From contig JAAZBM010000010.1 of NCBI GenBank assembly GCA_012513815.1, forward strand, positions 20,708-84,707: a DNA stretch of 64,000 nt. The letters run 5' to 3'. A program made the position numbers and the translations under genes. Under the pieces are notes generated by a model that did not search any database, had not been told where the DNA came from, and saw nothing but the letters and a program-made list of their open reading frames with translations. Source of the DNA: Candidatus Sumerlaeota bacterium (GTDB lineage: Bacteria > Sumerlaeota > Sumerlaeia > Sumerlaeales > Sumerlaeaceae). This document shows positions 15,999 to 23,819 of this stretch, piece after piece. The first letter of the stretch is position 1. Each line of letters begins with the position of its first letter.

Positions 15999-17048
15999 AT
16001 GAATATCCGCGCAAACATCTTTCTAACGATTGCGGTAGCAGCAACACTACTGCTGACGGCTTGTGCTGACAACAACAAAATAATCCTCCCAAACGACCCG
16101 ATTGGCCGACCCATCATCGGACTTATTCTCAAAAGCATCACAGCCACAACCACGCAGAGAATGTTGGTGAATACGGTCGAATACCAAAAGAAAAAGAACA
16201 CCTTCAACATCATCATCGAAGGCACTGTTACGCCTAATAGCGTCGCAAAACAGGAAGAACTCGTTCGAAAGATGATTGAGGCCGGTGTCGACGCGATTGT
16301 CATCGATCCCATCAACCGAACCACCGCACTAAAAGAACTCAAAAAAGCCATCGACAAAGGCATTCCCGTCGTCAACATTGACATCCCATTCGACAAAAAA
16401 ACCATGGAAGCGCTCGACATCGATATCCCATACATCGCGCCCGACAACGAGAAAGCAGCCGAAAACATCGCCGACTATGTCATATCCAAAATGGGAGACA
16501 GCAACGAACTCATCATCCTCGAAGGAATGCCACAAACGGCACTCGGAGAAGAGAGAACGAAAGGCTTTATCAAATCAATTGACAAAAACAACAAGACGCT
16601 CAACAGCATATACCTCGTGCCATGGTCGGATAACGAAATAAAAGAAATTCTCAAAAAAGCGCTGACGGCGCACCCAGGAACAAAAGCTGTCCTGACATGC
16701 ACCGACACAATTGCATTCTACGCGTGCCAAGCAATCAACGACCTCGGCCTCACCGGAAAAGTCCTCGTCGGAACAATCGGCTATCAGCACAAATCGATAC
16801 AGAGCCTCATCACCAAAGGCAAAGTAACAGCCGCCGCAAACCTTCACCATGACAAATACGGAATTGACGGAATCGAACTTGCCCTCAACCTGTTAGCCGA
16901 CCGCGAGCACTCACTCGACGACGTCAGGACATCGACAACCATCATCACCGCGAAAAACGCGCCGGTCATGTCGATGCAAACATCAGATGAGACCACAAAT
17001 CCTGACGACGAATCCAAAAACACGACACCATCAAAACGCAAAAACTAA
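15999..17048 (+). CDS. Periplasmic sugar-binding lipoprotein (RbsB-like)
   Basis: 349 residues. The N-terminus is a lipoprotein signal with lipobox LTAC (Cys21). The body is a type I periplasmic binding fold of the ribose/galactose class: VDAIVIDPINRTTALKEL, GIPVVNIDIPF, then IILEGMP, VLTCTDTIAFYACQAI and VLVGTIGYQ. It should bind a sugar or sugar-like ligand for an ABC importer or a sensor kinase. No permease, ATPase or kinase lies next to it, so it is an orphan. The C-terminal tail is polar and low in complexity. The ribosome binding site is weak. The 3' end overlaps the convergent GLUG gene by four bases. Confidence 0.85.
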   Translation: MNIRANIFLTIAVAATLLLTACADNNKIILPNDPIGRPIIGLILKSITATTTQRMLVNTVEYQKKKNTFNIIIEGTVTPNSVAKQEELVRKMIEAGVDAIVIDPINRTTALKELKKAIDKGIPVVNIDIPFDKKTMEALDIDIPYIAPDNEKAAENIADYVISKMGDSNELIILEGMPQTALGEERTKGFIKSIDKNNKTLNSIYLVPWSDNEIKEILKKALTAHPGTKAVLTCTDTIAFYACQAINDLGLTGKVLVGTIGYQHKSIQSLITKGKVTAAANLHHDKYGIDGIELALNLLADREHSLDDVRTSTTIITAKNAPVMSMQTSDETTNPDDESKNTTPSKRKN

Positions 17049-18409
17049 CGCCGACGAAAACGCGGATAAACGCTCCCTGACGCAAGCTCCCACACATCGG
17101 CAAAATCCCAACCCTTAAAAATCTCACGACGACTAAAAACGCGTGTTTCAAATCCCAAACCAGCATCGGAACGGCTTATACCGGAAACCTTTGTATCCCA
17201 AAAACAATTCGCCACACGTCCGATATTCAGCCCCGCGAAGCCACCCGTATAATCTCGGCCCTCAACCAAAACAGAAGCATAGCTGTTACTCACAGAACCA
17301 TTATTATAACCAACCAAACCGCCGACTTTCTGCTTGCCCAAAACCGTAGACCCTAATGCGTAACAATCGCGCACCACACCATTCTGATTCAAACCGACCA
17401 AACTCCCCACACTGTTGCTCCCCCAAAAACTGCTATTCTCAATTCCAAGATGACGAACCTCACCCGAAGAAACACACCCGAACAACCCGACACCGGTCAC
17501 AAATTCCGGCATCGAAATATGCACATTCGTGACGACCTTTCCATTACCATCGAAAAAGCCACAGAAACCTTGCCCTTGCATATTCGTGCCAATCGGCAAC
17601 AGCAACTGACGCACACGCACTGCCCGCCCTCGCGACGCCGACGCCGACTCCTCCGGCGACAACTTCTTCGTGACACTGCCATCAATATCACGCACCATCC
17701 GATAATGCTTGCCACGCGTCGCCTCATTCCCAAGCGTACACTGCGCCGACAACCACGCCAAATGCCCAAGCTCCTCGATAATATACGGGTCAGCCGCCGA
17801 ACCACTACCATGAATCGGCACAACAGCAGGCACAAAAATCGTCGATGGTGCTACCACCACCCGTGGCGCCACCCGCGGCCGCCGCTTCTTGACCAAAACG
17901 CCCGACGAAACCAGACTCCCTGTCGACACCACAGGCGCAACCGGAGCAACCTCCGCAGGCGGCGCGGCGATGGCAACCGTCGTCCCCGAAGACTCATGTT
18001 CAATCTGTTCCTCCGCGGACAAAATCGAACTAATCGTCGGAGTCGTCACCGTCGACGAAGAAACAACATCAGCCACCGGAGACTGCGCCCCATCAGGTCG
18101 AAGCGCGTCAACCAACTCCTGATTATGCGCGTTTCGCATTGCGCGCACATTACGGATGCCATCGAAAAATCCAACATTCCCCTCCGCCCGAGGTTCAACA
18201 ACCGACGGCGAAGTCCGTGACGTATTGGGAGACAAAAAATATACTGCCGCAGCAACAAGCACCGCTACCAAAACTATAAACGCGAGCGCCAACAAAACCC
18301 GAGACAAAGGACGTCGTGAAACTGAAGGTTCATCCTCTTCACAAACAGGACAAACCTCAAGACCATGATAATCAATCGGATACCAACACTTTTCACAAAA
18401 CCTTTTCAT
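17045..18409 (-). CDS. Zinc-ribbon, membrane-anchored GLUG protein
   Basis: About 454 residues from the ATG at 18409 (MKRFCEKCW). The N-terminus is a small zinc ribbon, CEKC then CPVC within 25 residues. One membrane span follows (about 38-60), then a long Pro/Val/Ala linker. From about residue 190 the C-terminal domain starts with GSGSAADPYIIEELGHLAWL, as in GLUG proteins, and ends in GLUG repeats (VGSLVGLNQNG, VGGLVGYNNG, TGGFAGLN). The inferred topology is a cytoplasmic ribbon and a periplasmic or surface repeat domain. It shares the GTGTQDDPCLI-like domain opening with the giant protein at 941-7294. Function unknown. Confidence 0.8.
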   Translation of the reverse strand: MKRFCEKCWYPIDYHGLEVCPVCEEDEPSVSRRPLSRVLLALAFIVLVAVLVAAAVYFLSPNTSRTSPSVVEPRAEGNVGFFDGIRNVRAMRNAHNQELVDALRPDGAQSPVADVVSSSTVTTPTISSILSAEEQIEHESSGTTVAIAAPPAEVAPVAPVVSTGSLVSSGVLVKKRRPRVAPRVVVAPSTIFVPAVVPIHGSGSAADPYIIEELGHLAWLSAQCTLGNEATRGKHYRMVRDIDGSVTKKLSPEESASASRGRAVRVRQLLLPIGTNMQGQGFCGFFDGNGKVVTNVHISMPEFVTGVGLFGCVSSGEVRHLGIENSSFWGSNSVGSLVGLNQNGVVRDCYALGSTVLGKQKVGGLVGYNNGSVSNSYASVLVEGRDYTGGFAGLNIGRVANCFWDTKVSGISRSDAGLGFETRVFSRREIFKGWDFADVWELASGSVYPRFRRR

Positions 18410-18520
18410 ACTATGACTTACAAAACAACAACAAACATTGTGTGTTTTCCAAAATGTTATTAATAGCATCATGTAATTTTTTAAAAAGATGTTATCGGAA
18501 TTTGCCAGTCGGAGGGCAAG

Positions 18521-20242
18521 ATGAAACCGTTTGATGAAAACATTACGAAGCTCATTAAGTCACGCTATCCTATTATCTACGTACACACATGGGAAGAAAA
18601 CAGGCTCATCGATACTGTCAAGGAAGTTGTCGAAAAAATCCGTAACGAAACCGTAAACAAAACGGATCGCAAAATCTATCTCTGGAGCTCAACAAAAGGC
18701 ATCGTCGAAACTCGACGCAAAGAAGGCAACGCCGAAAGCGAAGAACAAATCAAAGACACGCAAGACATCCTGAAGGCGCTGACGCAAGTCGAGCGGTGCA
18801 CCAACAACGCAATCTTCATTTTCAAAGATATGCACCAATACTTCGGATACTGCAACAGACCACCCGACAACGAAGTCATCAGAAAAATCCGCGACCTCGT
18901 CCCGACAATCCAAGAAGGAACATCCGCATTCATCACGCTCATCTTCGTCTCGCCGAGCCTCGTCCTACCGCAAGAACTCCAAAAAGATGTGACGGTGCTC
19001 GAATTCCCGCTGCCCACATTCGACGAAATCATGGAAATCCTCAACGGCATCATCGAGGACCACAAAGACCTTCCGCACGTACACATCGACCTCAACAAAA
19101 CGCAAAGTGAGCAACTCGTCCGTGCCGCAATGGGACTAACGAGTTCCGAAGCGCGGCGAGCCTTCATGAAAGCAATTGTCGGAGACAAAACCCTCAGCGT
19201 CAAAGATGTCGACATCATCCTCGAAGAGAAACAGCAAATCATCAAGAAAAGCGGAATCCTCGAATTCATCAACTCCGAACTCAAAATCGAAGATGTCGGC
19301 GGCCTCGAAAACCTCAAGGCGTGGCTCCGAAAAAGAAACAAGTCATGGCTCGAAGACGCCAAGAGATACGGCGTCCCCGCGCCCAAAGGCGTCCTCATCA
19401 CCGGCGTCCCCGGCTGCGGAAAAAGCCTCGTCGCCAAAGCCATCAGCACCATGTGGCAAATCCCGCTACTCCGCCTCGACGTCGGCCGCATTTTCAGCGG
19501 CATCGTCGGCAGCAGCGAAGAGAACGTCCGCAACGCCATCAGCACCGCCGAAGCGATTGCCCCGTCCATTCTCTGGATTGACGAAATCGAAAAAGGCTTC
19601 AGCTCCTTCGGCGGGCACAACGGCGACAGCGGAACATCAAGCAGGGTATTCGGCACGTTCCTCACATGGATGCAAGAGAAAACAAAACCCGTCTTCGTCA
19701 TCGCGACAGCCAACAACATCGAAACGCTCCCGCCCGAATTCCTCAGAAAAGGACGCTTCGACGAGATTTTCTTCGTTGACCTTCCCACCAACAACGAGCG
19801 ACAAGACATCTTCAAGGTTCACCTTGACAAACGCCTGCTCAACAAAGACGGAACACCCAAAGAACCCGAAGTCATGGGCAACTTCGAAATCTCGCAGACC
19901 GTCCTCTCGAATCTCGCCGAGCTTACCGAAGGTTTCGTCGGTGCCGAAATCGAACAGATTGTCATCACGGCGCTTTTCGAGGCGTTCGCCGCCAACAGAA
20001 GCATCACCTATGACGACCTCAAAAAGTCGATTCAAGACACCGTGCCTCTTTCGATAACGCAGGCGGAACGCATCATCACCATTCGCGAATGGGCAAACGC
20101 CCGGGCCGTCGCCGCAACGAGAAGAGAAGACCTCGTCGGCTACAGCACCGAAAGCCCCGAAACGAAAAACGAAACCAAGGAAGCGGCAACCAACGACGTC
20201 ACCAAGAAGCGCGGTGGAAGATCGCTCACGGTCGATATGTAG
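18521..20242 (+). CDS. AAA+ ATPase, Ycf46-like
   Basis: 573 residues; GGAGGG lies just upstream of the ATG. Residues 1-250 form the N-terminal domain seen in Ycf46-type proteins (IKSRYPIIYVHTWEENR, a degenerate first ATPase-like fold). The C-terminal AAA+ module is complete: DVGGLENLKAWL near 258, Walker A GVPGCGKS (295-302), Walker B SILWIDE (349-355), sensor ATANN near 395 and arginine finger RKGRFDE near 410. The tail is polar. Ycf46 is a plastid and cyanobacterial AAA+ protein of poorly defined function. It is the first gene of a five-gene operon in which every gene has a strong ribosome binding site and gaps are 11-25 bases. Confidence 0.9.
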   Translation: MKPFDENITKLIKSRYPIIYVHTWEENRLIDTVKEVVEKIRNETVNKTDRKIYLWSSTKGIVETRRKEGNAESEEQIKDTQDILKALTQVERCTNNAIFIFKDMHQYFGYCNRPPDNEVIRKIRDLVPTIQEGTSAFITLIFVSPSLVLPQELQKDVTVLEFPLPTFDEIMEILNGIIEDHKDLPHVHIDLNKTQSEQLVRAAMGLTSSEARRAFMKAIVGDKTLSVKDVDIILEEKQQIIKKSGILEFINSELKIEDVGGLENLKAWLRKRNKSWLEDAKRYGVPAPKGVLITGVPGCGKSLVAKAISTMWQIPLLRLDVGRIFSGIVGSSEENVRNAISTAEAIAPSILWIDEIEKGFSSFGGHNGDSGTSSRVFGTFLTWMQEKTKPVFVIATANNIETLPPEFLRKGRFDEIFFVDLPTNNERQDIFKVHLDKRLLNKDGTPKEPEVMGNFEISQTVLSNLAELTEGFVGAEIEQIVITALFEAFAANRSITYDDLKKSIQDTVPLSITQAERIITIREWANARAVAATRREDLVGYSTESPETKNETKEAATNDVTKKRGGRSLTVDM

Positions 20243-20267
20243 CGCAAATATACGGAGGTAAAAGAAC

Positions 20268-21032
20268 ATGTCATGCGTCGTCATCGGATTCCCAATCGGA
20301 CTCGCAATGTGGACAGCAATCGCTGCCGCATCAACACCTAAAGTGGTGCAAACATCAAAGGAAATATACAAAGACTGGCTCGCGTCAACTAAACTCGAAC
20401 TACCGACATCGTTCCGAAGCAGCAAGGAACTCATCAAAGTCGTCCAAAAGTGCGGATACGACTGCGTCAAATGGGACGGCCGATACAAAACCGAAATCAA
20501 CGGAACGGTCATCTTTTGGGAAAAAATCTTCGGACGATGGCACGCCGTCTCCGCCTCATACGACGCCCCCGTCGTCAGGAAATTCGTCGACAGAGTCAAC
20601 GACGAAATGAAGATGGAAATCTTTAACATGGACAAGGCGAAAAAGGCTCTCGAAGAGAGCGAAAAGGCGGCCTCACGCCTCTGGACGACCAGCTTCACGG
20701 ACGGCGATTTGCTCATCAAAGCCCTCGCGGACAAAGGCTTCTCCGCCAAACCGGATCCCGACGGCAACATCATTTGCGCCGTGGACGCCAAGTCCGCGCT
20801 CTGCTTCAGGCCCGTGGAAAACGGCCCATACTCCGTCGAAGTCAAGAACATCGACGACCTCAGCCAAGTCCATCGCGAGCTTGTCGAACTCGACGGCCAC
20901 TACAGACAGCTCATTCAACAACGAACGGTGCAGAACATCAAGAACAGAGCAAAGTCACGAAACATGACCATCGAATCGGAAACGGTTATGCAAGACCAAT
21001 CTGTCGTCATCGTGCTCAACGTAGAGGAATAA
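20268..21032 (+). CDS. DUF1257 (Ycf35-like) protein
   Basis: 254 residues, 25 bases after the AAA+ gene with GGAGG before the ATG. The N-terminus is hydrophobic (MSCVVIGFPIGLAMWTAIAA), followed by a central region with LIKVVQKCGYDCVKWDG and a C-terminal segment KNRAKSRNMTIESETVMQ then SVVIVLNVEE. This matches the pattern of DUF1257/Ycf35, in which a helical middle leads to a final beta-hairpin. The assignment is from remembered family features plus the Ycf46 neighbour, so it is moderate. A second GDLLIKALADKGFSA-like unit in the middle suggests an internal duplication. Molecular role unknown. Confidence 0.65.
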   Translation: MSCVVIGFPIGLAMWTAIAAASTPKVVQTSKEIYKDWLASTKLELPTSFRSSKELIKVVQKCGYDCVKWDGRYKTEINGTVIFWEKIFGRWHAVSASYDAPVVRKFVDRVNDEMKMEIFNMDKAKKALEESEKAASRLWTTSFTDGDLLIKALADKGFSAKPDPDGNIICAVDAKSALCFRPVENGPYSVEVKNIDDLSQVHRELVELDGHYRQLIQQRTVQNIKNRAKSRNMTIESETVMQDQSVVIVLNVEE

Positions 21033-21044
21033 AGGGCGAACTCT

Positions 21045-21824
21045 ATGGATAACGAATCGCGATTCGACCAATGGCAACGGCGACTTGACACCGACGAAAA
21101 ACAACTGGTATCTTTTTTCGACACAAAAGTCACCGCCTCGGACACTGTCTTTATCTTTCCCGACATCCCACCGGAAGTCTGGAAACTCACGCTAAATATC
21201 CCGGTCAGTAAGGACACGTGCGTTCTCGCCATCATCCTCATGTTCCTCGACGACTTCGACGGAACAAACGCCCTCATACTCACGACGAACGCGTTATGCC
21301 TGCGACAAAAAGCAAGAACGGTGACGTACCCTTACCAGACCAGCGCCGGAACTCAAGTCCCCGACGACATCATCGGAAAGATTAAAACAAAATACCCCGC
21401 GATTGCGGAATTTCTCGCGACCGTTACGGCGCCCGAATACGTCACGAACTTCCACAAGACGCTCCCGCACCAAAGTAGCACAAGCTTCCCGCTGATGCAG
21501 GACACACCCGACACGAACAACCTGCCATCCGCCCTCGAGAATTCACCCGCCACAAAACTCGACCCGACTCTCTCGTTCAGACTTGACCTCAACAACGCGA
21601 CCCTCGACGACCTACTCGAAATGCCCGGATTCTCGCTCGTCACGGCGCAATCGTTCATCAAAGAGAGAGACCGCCGCCACGGATTCGCCTCATACACCGA
21701 CATCGGCGAGTTCCTCGACCTCCAGCCGCACCAAATCGAAAAACTCAGAATGGAAACGACTCTAAACCCAATGTCGGACAACACCATTTCAAAGGCCTCA
21801 AAAAGGGCCATCGTTGACTATTAG
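21045..21824 (+). CDS. Unknown protein with C-terminal helix-hairpin-helix domain
   Basis: 259 residues; AAGGG precedes the ATG and the gap to the previous gene is 12 bases. Residues 1-130 are not recognised; they read as a mixed alpha/beta domain with FDGTNALILTTNALCLRQKA, which resembles a small nucleotide- or lipid-sensing fold but cannot be named. A Ser/Thr/Pro linker leads to a ComEA-type helix-hairpin-helix (about 185-245): LDLNNATLDDLLEMPGFSLV, then FIKERDRRHGFASYTDIGEF. Such domains usually contact DNA, RNA or protein partners. Third gene of the Ycf46 operon. Confidence 0.7.
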   Translation: MDNESRFDQWQRRLDTDEKQLVSFFDTKVTASDTVFIFPDIPPEVWKLTLNIPVSKDTCVLAIILMFLDDFDGTNALILTTNALCLRQKARTVTYPYQTSAGTQVPDDIIGKIKTKYPAIAEFLATVTAPEYVTNFHKTLPHQSSTSFPLMQDTPDTNNLPSALENSPATKLDPTLSFRLDLNNATLDDLLEMPGFSLVTAQSFIKERDRRHGFASYTDIGEFLDLQPHQIEKLRMETTLNPMSDNTISKASKRAIVDY

Positions 21825-21835
21825 GAGACAACACT

Positions 21836-22090
21836 ATGGCAAAGAAGAAAATCAAAATTCAAGTCATGAGCGACGGAATGATTCACACGGAAGTCTCGGG
21901 CATTAAAGGGAAAAAATGCATGGACTACATCAAAGTCATTGAAGAACTTGCGCAGATGACGACTATTCATTCTAAAGCGACTAAAGAATATTATGAACCG
22001 GAAGACAAGGTTTATCTTACTCCGTCAACCAATCAAACGAAAACAGAGGATGTCTTGCCCACTGTTCAGCAACAGAACAAAATGGAGTAG
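21836..22090 (+). CDS. DUF2997 small protein
   Basis: 84 residues; AGGAG precedes the ATG and the gap is 11 bases. The sequence has the DUF2997 pattern: a short beta-hairpin IKIQVMSDGMIHTEVSGIKG, then KKCMDYIKVIEELA and a TKEYYEPED motif. DUF2997 proteins are known to travel with DUF1257 genes. The C-terminal 25 residues are polar and probably disordered. The conserved single Cys (KKCMDY) may bear on the nearby radical SAM protein, but this is speculation. Confidence 0.75.
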   Translation: MAKKKIKIQVMSDGMIHTEVSGIKGKKCMDYIKVIEELAQMTTIHSKATKEYYEPEDKVYLTPSTNQTKTEDVLPTVQQQNKME

Positions 22091-22101
22091 GACCGCAACT
22101 C

Positions 22102-22770
22102 ATGAAGAGCATTGAAAAAGGCAATACTGTTCTTCGCGTACATCAATACCTCCCGAGAACCGAAGCCGAAGGACCCGGTGTCAGAGCATGCGTCTGGGTA
22201 CAAGGATGCTCAATTCACTGCAAAGGATGCTTCATGCAAGAAGCATGGGACCCAAATGCCGGCAAAGAATACGACGTAGAAGAACTCGCAAATGACATCC
22301 TCGCGCAAAAAGACATCGAAGGCCTAACCATACTCGGCGGCGAGCCTTTCGACCAAGCCCACGCCGTCGGACTACTCGCATCAATCATGCACGTACACGG
22401 CCTATCCGTCATGACTTTTACCGGCTACAAAGTCGAAGAACTCTGGATGAAAAACGACACCGACGTCAACGCCCTACTCAACGCCACGGACCTGCTCGTT
22501 GACAGCCCGTTCATTCTCGAACTCGAATCGAACGACAGGCCATGGGTTGGCTCATCGAACCAGCGCTTCCACTTCCTCAGCAGCAGATACATCGACCTCA
22601 AGGACTCGCTACACACAATCAAAAACAAAATCGAAGTCCGCATCGACAAAAACGGACAATACAAAATCAACGGCATGGCGAGTAAGAAAATCCGAGACGA
22701 GATGTTTGACAAACTCCGCTGCCCCCAAAATAACTCAATCCCAATATCTGAGCCTAAACCGAGAGAATAA
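22102..22770 (+). CDS. Radical SAM 4Fe-4S protein, activating-enzyme type
   Basis: 222 residues; a GGAGTAGGA purine stretch precedes the ATG and the gap is 11 bases. The cluster motif CSIHCKGC (Cx3Cx2C, Cys36/40/43) sits in the GPGVRACVWVQGC context of NrdG/PflA-type activating enzymes. GGEPF is the SAM-binding GGE motif. It should bind one 4Fe-4S cluster and cleave SAM to make a radical. No anaerobic ribonucleotide reductase or glycyl-radical enzyme gene is nearby, so the target may be one of the operon proteins or something encoded elsewhere. Last gene of the Ycf46 operon. Confidence 0.88.
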   Translation: MKSIEKGNTVLRVHQYLPRTEAEGPGVRACVWVQGCSIHCKGCFMQEAWDPNAGKEYDVEELANDILAQKDIEGLTILGGEPFDQAHAVGLLASIMHVHGLSVMTFTGYKVEELWMKNDTDVNALLNATDLLVDSPFILELESNDRPWVGSSNQRFHFLSSRYIDLKDSLHTIKNKIEVRIDKNGQYKINGMASKKIRDEMFDKLRCPQNNSIPISEPKPRE

Positions 22771-22847: not shown

Positions 22848-23819
22848 ATGTCTGTAGATATGCCTTTAGAAGAACTTTTGAAATACAACGGAACAAATGC
22901 CAGACCTAACGACTACGATGAATACTGGCAAAAGGCACTCGACGAACTCGACAACACAGCGCCATCGGTCAGACTGACACCCGCCGAATGGCAAATTCCA
23001 AATTTCGTCTGCAGAGACCTCTGGTTCCACGGCGTCCGAGGCGGCAAAATCTACGCGAAAGCGGTCAGACCGGCCGGCACGGAAAACACAAAACTCCCCG
23101 CCCTCCTTCTCTTCCATGGTTACAGTGGCGCAAGCGAACCTTGGCAATACATGTTGGGATTCGCAGGCATCGGATTCGAAGTCTTCTACATGGACTGTCG
23201 CGGACAGGCCGGCGCAAGCTACGACGACAACGGCAACAGAGGACGCACACACTTCGGAACGCTCATGAAAGGTGTCATGGACGGAGACCCACAGCGCCTT
23301 GCGTTCAGACACATCTATCTTGACACGGCGCAGCTCGCCAGAATCGTCATGAACCTCCCCGGGATCGACCCGGACAGAGTCGCCGTCTACGGCCAGTCAC
23401 AAGGAGGAGCGCTCTCCGTCACATGCGCCGCGCTCGAACAAAGAATCGCCTACTGCGCCCCCGTATTCCCATACCTCAGCGACCACAAAAGAGTCTACGA
23501 TCTCGCCTTCCCGGTCGGTGTCAACGAGGAAATCAACTACTGGTTCAGAACATACGACCCACAGCACAAGAGAGAAGATTGGCTCTTCGAACAACTCGGC
23601 TACGTCGACATTCAGTTCCTCGCGCCACGTATCAAAGCCAAAACGCTCATGATGTGCGGACTCAAAGACACCTGTTGCCCGCCCTCATCGCAGTTCGCGA
23701 TGTACAACAAAATCACCGCGCCCAAGCAACTCAGAGTCTTCCCGGACTTCATCCACGAAACGTTGCCCAACCAAGCGGACGAAATGCTGCAGTGGCTCTT
23801 GCCGCAGATTTTGGCATAA
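22848..23819 (+). CDS. Acetyl-xylan esterase / cephalosporin-C deacetylase family hydrolase
   Basis: 323 residues, the usual length of the AXE1 (CE7) family. The triad is visible: Ser184 in YGQSQGG, Asp274 in GLKDTCCPP and His303 in FIHETLP. The family hallmark DxxCCPP is intact, as is the RGQ oxyanion region (MDCRGQAG). It removes acetyl groups from xylo-oligosaccharides or similar acetylated sugars. There is no signal peptide, so it acts in the cytoplasm as CE7 enzymes do. No clear ribosome binding site. It lies 77 bases after the radical SAM gene and is probably a separate unit. Confidence 0.9.
   Translation: MSVDMPLEELLKYNGTNARPNDYDEYWQKALDELDNTAPSVRLTPAEWQIPNFVCRDLWFHGVRGGKIYAKAVRPAGTENTKLPALLLFHGYSGASEPWQYMLGFAGIGFEVFYMDCRGQAGASYDDNGNRGRTHFGTLMKGVMDGDPQRLAFRHIYLDTAQLARIVMNLPGIDPDRVAVYGQSQGGALSVTCAALEQRIAYCAPVFPYLSDHKRVYDLAFPVGVNEEINYWFRTYDPQHKREDWLFEQLGYVDIQFLAPRIKAKTLMMCGLKDTCCPPSSQFAMYNKITAPKQLRVFPDFIHETLPNQADEMLQWLLPQILA

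Follow-up and report, generated by a model that had tools for sequence, protein, structure and literature searches.

The window analysed here is a stretch of 64,000 nucleotides from a Candidatus Sumerlaeota bacterium (GenBank assembly GCA_012513815.1, contig JAAZBM010000010.1, positions 20,708 to 84,707 of the forward strand). Positions 18521-22770 of its plus strand contain five head-to-tail open reading frames (ORFs) with intergenic gaps of 25, 12, 11 and 11 bases. These encode a Ycf46-type AAA+ ATPase, a divergent DUF1257-like protein (gene 2), a helix-hairpin-helix (HHH) protein, a DUF2997 protein and a radical S-adenosylmethionine (SAM) protein. Comparison of loci across genomes shows the five genes to be one co-inherited module, and the grouping is real, conserved and horizontally moved. 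Comparison of C-termini shows that the ATPase and the HHH protein have a common short tail. The cassette likely encodes a machine for remodelling or modifying proteins that bear this tail, most of them anchored in the membrane. The evidence for assembly into one module is strong; the chemistry and the target we infer.

Recurrence and co-inheritance of the five genes

Relatives of the window ATPase were collected with an ATPase-alignment scan of one genome per species, and the best 80 of at least 574 confirmed relatives were used for locus counts. In 27 of these best 80 loci, the five families are all found within 7 kb on the strand of the ATPase, and 26 of the 27 are in the top 35. Because only the best 80 loci were sampled, 27/80 is not a natural frequency. 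The order of the genes varies and their content is kept: the ATPase gene comes first in some cassettes, and the HHH and radical SAM genes are ahead of it in others. The hosts span several phyla and include Clostridium, Gastranaerophilales, Gordonia, Dactylosporangium, Micromonospora, Microbacterium, Amycolatopsis, Mumia, Tenacibaculum and Tannerellaceae. Several loci are on short contigs or in metagenome-assembled genomes, and the one labelled Methanosphaera (L078) could reflect a binning error. The locus scan of named genomes may omit records very close to the window. Gene starts in the fetched loci are mechanical (first ATG, GTG or TTG), apart from some chosen by hand in the gene 2 alignment.

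In the FastTree phylogeny of 110 ATPases, all 32 HHH-associated sequences, including that of the window, are inside one 34-tip clade with a support of 0.938. The remaining two tips of this clade are L090, a cassette in which the HHH gene is undetected, and L078, in which the HHH gene is on the opposite strand. The 26 tips from other Sumerlaeota all fall outside the clade. The closest relatives of the window ATPase among the best 80 loci are not Sumerlaeota; they are from Neobacillus (59%), Paenibacillus (56%), and Aneurinibacillus, Clostridium and a planctomycete (55% each). The placement of the window ATPase in the five-gene clade, apart from other Sumerlaeota ATPases, points to a horizontally moving cassette. 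Among 40 Sumerlaeota genomes, an ATPase match at 1e-20 is present in 31 (below 1e-50 in 28) and DUF2997 in 3 only. DUF1257-like genes are present in 28 of the 40; 25 of these 28 genomes contain no DUF2997, and the genes are mostly off the ATPase contig (e.g., L243-L249).

In Mantel tests of 28 loci, including the window, the distance matrices are correlated in all ten protein pairs (r 0.58-0.84, p = 0.001 each). The first-pass annotation of this DNA had taken the five genes for one system, provided that their neighbours in other genomes are not random and that the DUF1257 and DUF2997 assignments pass profile searches. Neighbourhood analysis finds the neighbours to be strongly non-random, and both the co-location of the same five families and the distance correlations support the one-system claim. 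The phylum named in its survey plan, Lentisphaerota, is not that of the host, which belongs to Candidatus Sumerlaeota.

Among 146 genomes of the Clostridium peptidivorans family (that species, G042, included), the cassette-type radical SAM gene is present in four, with E-values of 7.7e-80 or better. The next matches begin at 1.7e-51, which leaves a wide score gap, and the four genomes also contain a lower-scoring match.

The shared C-terminal tail

The full tail pattern is R-x(1-3)-[VILM]-[DE]-[FLIYVMW]-end, and the alternative pattern uses the last three residues only. Tail counts omit L110 (on the same contig as L034), the phage loci L052-L055 and ATPase ORFs that have no stop codon; L127 is unclassed. 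The full pattern is present in 41/43 HHH proteins and in 27/32 ATPases beside an HHH gene. It is present in 7/28 ATPases that occur with DUF1257 or DUF2997 and no HHH gene, and in 3/46 solo ATPases. No gene 2 protein (0/60), DUF2997 protein (0/49) or radical SAM protein (0/43) contains it, and it is found in 5 of 1862 other complete ORFs of at least 150 amino acids. The last-three-residue pattern gives the same counts for HHH proteins (41/43) and ATPases beside them (27/32), and is present in 18/28 of the DUF1257/DUF2997-only ATPases, 4/46 solo ATPases, 4/60 gene 2 proteins, 1/49 DUF2997 proteins, 0/43 radical SAM proteins and 14/1862 other ORFs. By this pattern, ATPases with a partner are tailed in 45 of 60 cases versus 4 of 46 for solo ATPases (Fisher p = 2.8e-12). 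With a relaxed pattern, the tail is present on 36/43 ATPases whose locus contains DUF2997 versus 4/48 from loci with neither DUF family (the window is not among these rows).

The two non-matching HHH proteins are near misses (VDMQ and RRVD). An arginine is present at position -5 in 40 of 41 tailed HHH proteins and in 26 of 27 tailed ATPases beside them; the sole exceptions are the pair from the window, which have longer tails. ATPase tails beside HHH genes are frequently GGRTIDF or GGRTLDF. At position -2 of the ATPase tail, loci with an HHH gene have D in 23 and E in 4, and loci with no HHH gene have E in 18 and D in 1. Among 108 six-frame ATG ORFs of at least 100 amino acids in the window, just two have the tail: the HHH protein, with RAIVDY, and the ATPase, with RSLTVDM. 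Since these two proteins are unrelated, their common tail is not a matter of simple inheritance. This shared tail was absent from the first-pass annotation.

The five other tailed ORFs include the second ATPase of L108 and three cassette-adjacent ORFs (in L081, L088 and L090), which have hydrophobic starts by eye and are unmatched by the HHH profile. Two tailed, cassette-adjacent ORFs in which no HHH domain was detected, L088:7160-7660 (GGRVIDL) and L090:5595-6227 (SRKLDL), are candidate further clients.

Properties of the individual proteins

The ATPase matches Pfam AAA at 3.3e-31. Its Walker A (GVPGCGKS), Walker B (WIDE) and arginine-finger stretch (RKGRFD) are intact, and the key residues are invariant in an eight-sequence alignment. 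Residues 4-536 match PHROG 8638 at 2e-149, a full-length match that includes the N-terminal region. Alignments to the ATPases of 11 cyanobacterial loci extend from residue 2-6 to residue 524-573. The Pfam, PHROG and alignment results thus bear out the earlier description of a Ycf46-like AAA+ ATPase with intact Walker motifs and arginine finger.

Gene 2 has no above-threshold family in Pfam, NCBIfam, PHROGs or PADLOC, and a search of eight genomes with the Pfam DUF1257 model (PF06868) gives no match in the six five-gene genomes. Iterated profiles seeded with gene 2 first gather homologues from the cassettes and later reach true DUF1257 proteins, cyanobacterial Ycf35 among them. The alignment of gene 2 contains 27 homologues from the iterated profile search, some with starts that we chose. 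When compared by hhalign with 12 DUF1257 proteins (11 cyanobacterial and that of L063), it gives a match of 96.8% (E 2.9e-10) over 97 columns. These profile comparisons show gene 2 to be a divergent homologue of DUF1257. Because the homology is found by profile and the Pfam cut-off is not reached, the protein is named DUF1257-like and not a DUF1257 member. The DUF1257 assignment of the first-pass annotation therefore holds as remote homology and fails in direct scans of Pfam, NCBIfam and PHROGs. Met-Ser is present at positions 1-2 of the gene 2 protein in all 27 aligned homologues, some of which have these author-chosen starts. The AlphaFold2 model of gene 2 has a mean predicted local distance difference test score (pLDDT) of 81.5 and a predicted template modelling score of 0.54; residues 1-28 are under a pLDDT of 50. 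In this model, two alpha/beta copies (residues ~43-114 and ~137-251) follow a low-confidence, hydrophobic N-terminus, and gene 2 is predicted to be a double DUF1257-like copy. Its matches to known folds are weak and were not used. The duplication was not described in the first-pass annotation.

The HHH_3 match in the window HHH protein is 2.1e-6 (28.2 bits versus a cut-off of 27). Of 33 proteins of the HHH set scanned with Pfam, 30 match HHH_3, 8 match type II secretion system (T2SS) protein K, 1 matches tetratricopeptide repeat (TPR) families and 1 matches GYF_2; the 33 include the tail-bearing proteins of L088 and L090, in which no HHH domain is detected. A hydrophobic membrane-type segment (at least one stretch of 19 residues with a mean hydropathy of at least 1.6) is present in 37 of 43 HHH proteins. 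The reference hairpin motif of HHH domains is GxG. In most members the second hairpin is replaced by LKPH-like residues, by eye, and in the window protein by LQPH. One locus (L077) contains seven HHH genes in one stretch. Its six HHH paralogues over 150 amino acids have a mean identity of 52% in the HHH part and 19% N-terminal to it. The HHH proteins look like a constant recognition part attached to variable proteins.

The DUF2997 protein matches its Pfam family (PF11211) at 2.9e-10, with 40.3 bits versus a cut-off of 24.1, so the original assignment stands. G14, G25 and C28 are invariant in 39/39 aligned DUF2997 proteins, which supplies the conserved cysteine and glycine that the earlier plan had proposed to look for. 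This alignment contains 39 of 47 rows and omits L083, L084, L087, L089, L090, L098, L099 and L147. Within the 47-row set, every row has the cysteine except L147, which is an additional copy in G034, L090 has a partial domain that does not contain the second glycine, and L145 and L146 duplicate L032 and L040; a further alignment also drops both phage rows. In the predicted structure (mean pLDDT 78.9), C28 is at the start of the helix that follows the hairpin.

The radical SAM protein matches Pfam Fer4_12 at 1.5e-34. CxxxCxxC and GGEP are invariant in 18/18 aligned proteins, and the intact CxxxCxxC that had been reported for the window protein is present. NrdG (TIGR02491) is the top NCBIfam model at 111.7 bits, under the equivalog cut-off of 126.1. 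The NrdG motif at the position of the cassette EGPG is NGPG, and NGPG is found in L063, L115 and L126. The cassette radical SAM gene is present in 14/14 cassette genomes examined. Among these 14, some of which are drafts, Gly_radical is undetected in five (two Microbacterium, Tenacibaculum, Paractinoplanes and Aneurinibacillus), and NRDD is undetected in 11, including the same five. In the host genome (G000), NrdD is adjoined by an NrdG-like gene on another contig. By sequence, the cassette radical SAM protein is a lineage separate from this NrdG-like gene. Its distances are correlated with those of the ATPase, gene 2 and DUF2997 (r 0.77-0.84) and with those of the HHH protein (r 0.66).

A different, cysteine-rich radical SAM gene, which we take to be PflX-like, is upstream of ATPase-DUF1257-DUF2997 in L032, L040, L104, L105, L107 and L130 (the four-gene variant). 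Two kinds of radical SAM gene have thus joined the ATPase-DUF1257-DUF2997 core.

Proposed mechanism and alternatives

Our preferred reading, which we hold tentatively, is that the cassette encodes a remodelling machine of the AAA+ type, in which DUF1257 and DUF2997 would be paired adaptors, the HHH proteins tail-bearing clients and the radical SAM protein a dedicated enzyme of the complex. The ATPase would likely dock through its own tail, together with the adaptor pair, onto the tail-bearing HHH clients, which it is predicted to remodel. The tail would be a docking ligand read by DUF2997, DUF1257 or both, as suggested by cellular ATPases, which are tailed next to DUF2997 and mostly not when solo. 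The HHH proteins would be clients or client adaptors, given their variable N-terminal parts, constant HHH domain and tail, and up to seven genes per locus. The ATPase probably pulls or refolds rather than degrades, because there is no protease among the five genes. The site of action is probably the membrane in most hosts. The radical SAM enzyme likely modifies one member of the complex. The adaptor complex is favoured as its target, since 5 of the 14 cassette genomes contain no detectable glycyl radical enzyme and since the radical SAM gene covaries with gene 2 and DUF2997. Within that complex, the leading candidate site is the GxxGxxC loop of DUF2997; the radical step as a whole is the least certain part of the reading. 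A redox link would fit the cyanobacteria, where DUF2997 and DUF1257 share an operon with a DnaJ-interacting stress ferredoxin, Fed7 (PMC4284462).

A broader proposal, which we consider doubtful, is a radical-SAM-coupled AAA+ remodelase. The ATPase and its membrane clients would use the same docking site on a DUF1257/DUF2997 adaptor through an R-x-x-D-hydrophobic tail, radical chemistry on the adaptor would be the switch, and a ferredoxin would replace the radical SAM enzyme in the Ycf46/Ycf35/DUF2997 system of cyanobacteria and plastids. In published work, DUF2997, Ycf35 and Fed7 are encoded in one cyanobacterial operon, and Fed7 is associated with oxidative, metal and iron stress and interacts with a DnaJ-like protein (PMC4284462).

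Several points weigh against the remodelling reading. Pore loop 1 of the window ATPase, which we assign to SGIVG, is aliphatic, which leaves strong threading uncertain. The membrane-type segment of the window HHH protein (residues 50-68) is marginal, with a hydropathy of 1.69. The genomes tested for glycyl radical enzymes include drafts. Cys28 is equally conserved where no NrdG-like radical SAM gene is detected nearby (e.g., L091, L108, L114 and the phage loci L052 and L053), and thus need not be the radical target.

Other points concern the tail. ATPases with DUF1257 or DUF2997 and no HHH gene are tailed in the 7/28 (full pattern) or 18/28 (last three residues) cases given above. The HHH-adjacent ATPases form one clade, so the ATPase tail statistics are not independent of descent. 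The DUF1257-like genes of Sumerlaeota (28/40 genomes) go mostly with tail-less ATPases, and DUF1257 alone therefore cannot be the tail reader. In the 79 viral ATPases whose ends are complete, the relaxed tail is present in 4/27 with a detected DUF1257 or DUF2997 versus 23/52 with neither detected. The viral counts speak against a simple tail-reader model. Either the viral partners are too diverged for detection, or another tail reader is present there.

The small size of DUF2997 and its single cysteine in a GxxGxxC loop, invariant in 39/39, would also fit a radical-SAM maturation system, as would a dedicated radical SAM enzyme in genomes with no detectable glycyl radical enzyme. DUF2997 would then be a modified, peptide-like product with a crosslink at Cys28, and its release or transport at the membrane would be aided by the ATPase, the gene 2 protein and the HHH protein. 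We consider this unlikely: no leader, protease or exporter is seen in the cassettes, DUF2997 itself has no tail, and loci near which no NrdG-like radical SAM gene is detected retain both the protein and its cysteine.

An anti-phage or conflict system, in which HHH proteins sense or execute and are gated by the ATPase, is improbable in our judgement. It would account for a patchy, horizontally moved cassette in several phyla and for the variable, multiplied N-terminal parts of the HHH proteins. PADLOC gives general AAA matches for the ATPase (IetA, TRIP13) and a weak viperin match for the radical SAM protein. The flanks of 19 cassettes (95/116 proteins) match 43 PADLOC families at 1e-10, with at most three proteins each among the families listed; the flanks of 18 control ATPase loci that have no cassette (86/95 proteins) match 39 families, with at most two proteins each among those listed. 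No enrichment at cassettes is seen in this comparison, which covers listed defence systems; a new system would be absent from the list. In addition, viral genomes themselves encode the ATPase and its partners.

The first-pass annotation had suggested a nucleic-acid- or ribosome-directed machine with the HHH protein as the binding part, and HHH_3 is a ComEA-type domain (NCBIfam comE 0.042; PDB ComE operon protein 1, E 0.99). The replaced second hairpin of most members and the membrane-type segment in 37/43 tell against this suggestion, and the T2SS protein K matches in 8/33 indicate that the HHH domain is not tied to nucleic acid. We regard a nucleic-acid target as quite unlikely.

That the radical SAM gene is a stray NrdG-type activase in a cluster with no joint function would agree with NrdG as top model and is close to refuted by the score under the NrdG cut-off, the EGPG motif, the distance correlations with the other four proteins and the cassette genomes in which NRDD (11/14) or Gly_radical (5/14) is undetected.

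Related loci

Viral contigs contain parts of the module. A Ycf46-type ATPase with DUF1257, DUF2997 or both is present in L153, L156, L163, L165, L195, L197, L201, L215, L219, L222 and L225, and ten of these 11 contigs are over 100 kb. In four of them (L156, L165, L195 and L197), a radical SAM gene is close to that of the ATPase. All five families are present in viral contig L152.

In L115 and L126 (Treponema and Spirochaetales contigs), the ATPase, an NrdG-like radical SAM gene and DUF2997 occur together. The genes of L115 adjoin a phage-baseplate/type VI secretion OB-domain protein (Phage_base_V 1.1e-14) and a protein with a weak tail-assembly-chaperone match. This suggests that the L115/L126 module is used with a contractile tail-like particle.

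The four-gene variants L032, L040 and L108 have a nearby protein with an N-terminal RF-x-x-[LI]E or similar motif, which is a TPR protein by Pfam in L108 and TPR-like by eye in L032 and L040. Zinc-ribbon-like proteins are present in L032 and L040 (by eye) and in L091 (Pfam). In another Sumerlaeota genome, L063 is an operon of radical SAM, ATPase, GrpE and DUF1257 genes (GrpE 2.8e-7), which may tie the system to Hsp70. An ORF downstream in L063 resembles a formylglycine-generating-enzyme relative.

Features and flanking genes of the window

The positions of the features are listed in Table 1. The five tightly spaced, co-oriented ORFs and the 11-25 base gaps of the first-pass annotation agree with these coordinates. 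It had described strong ribosome binding sites throughout; GGAGG or AGGAG is present ahead of genes 1, 2 and 4, and the Shine-Dalgarno-like sites ahead of genes 3 and 5 are weaker. The completeness of the host genome is estimated at 66%.

The gene upstream of the cluster is on the opposite strand, and an acetyl xylan esterase family gene begins 77 bases downstream. The flanking genes encode a periplasmic sugar-binding-type protein (15999-17048), a GLUG-motif protein (17045-18472, opposite strand) and the acetyl xylan esterase family protein (22848-23819); among these flanking genes, no connection to the five-gene module is seen.

Table 1. Positions of the five genes and their motifs in the window.
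Feature	Position	Strand	Description
Ycf46-type AAA+ ATPase, 573 aa	18521..20242	+	N-terminal family-specific region ~1-245, AAA core 291-420, lid 462-495
ATPase C-terminal tail RSLTVDM	20219..20239	+	
Gene 2, divergent DUF1257-like, 254 aa	20268..21032	+	Hydrophobic N-terminus, residues 3-21; two predicted DUF1257-like copies, ~43-114 and ~137-251
HHH protein, 259 aa	21045..21824	+	Orphan N-terminal region 1-168; HHH_3 domain 180-235
HHH protein C-terminal tail RAIVDY	21804..21821	+	
DUF2997 protein, 84 aa	21836..22090	+	Predicted beta hairpin and helix
DUF2997 Cys28 codon	21917..21919	+	Helix start in predicted structure
Radical SAM protein, 222 aa	22102..22770	+	NrdG-like but distinct (EGPG, not NGPG)
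CSIHCKGC (CxxxCxxC)	22207..22230	+	4Fe-4S ligand motif

Comparison with known systems

We know of no settled role for Ycf46 and Ycf35 in plastid genomes; Ycf46 has reportedly been linked to CO2 use. The presence of ycf35 and ycf46 is linked to marine rather than freshwater red algae in one study (PMC5940233). In the open-access literature searched, three papers mention DUF1257 and two mention DUF2997, with both families named in two. In that literature, with subscription papers mostly outside the coverage, we found no paper that joins Ycf46 and radical SAM, none that joins a contractile injection system, an AAA ATPase and radical SAM, and no description of a five-gene unit with a shared tail. 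Because the cassette is self-contained and occurs in named strains of Paenibacillus, Clostridium, Microbacterium and Micromonospora, the question can be tested outside photosynthesis, and the shared tail reduces it to a simple binding test. If true, the coupling of a radical SAM protein to an AAA+ ATPase in hosts where glycyl radical enzymes are undetected would put radical chemistry to a new use.

NrdG and other glycyl radical activases share the Fer4_12 core, CxxxCxxC and GGEP with the cassette protein. They differ from it in NGPG versus EGPG and in the NrdG cut-off, which the cassette protein does not reach, and 5/14 cassette hosts have no detectable glycyl radical enzyme. The four-gene variant of Planctomycetes and Sumerlaeota shares the ATPase, a DUF1257-like protein with a hydrophobic start, DUF2997 and an upstream radical SAM gene with the cassette. 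It differs in the kind of radical SAM gene, which is cysteine-rich, in that the HHH gene is undetected, and in its tails, which have E instead of D in five loci and are absent in L107. Rhizobium phage L338C and Pseudomonas phage SM1 encode a Ycf46-type ATPase followed by DUF1257 and DUF2997, as in the cassette core; unlike in the cassette, HHH and radical SAM genes are undetected in these phage stretches.

The published cyanobacterial cluster DUF2997-ycf35-fed7 includes a ferredoxin, unlike the cassette (PMC4284462). In the 11 cyanobacterial loci, HHH, NrdG-like radical SAM and DUF2997 genes are undetected within 7 kb, and the cyanobacterial DUF1257 is a single copy with no hydrophobic start, unlike gene 2. 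Cyanobacterial Ycf35 is nevertheless a DUF1257 protein homologous to gene 2, and DUF2997 is shared by name. Cyanobacterial and plastid Ycf46 belongs to the same ATPase family as the window protein, with 42-45% identity over ~500 residues across the 11 cyanobacterial loci. The ATPases of all 11 loci end in [ML]EF, a likeness to the cassette tail.

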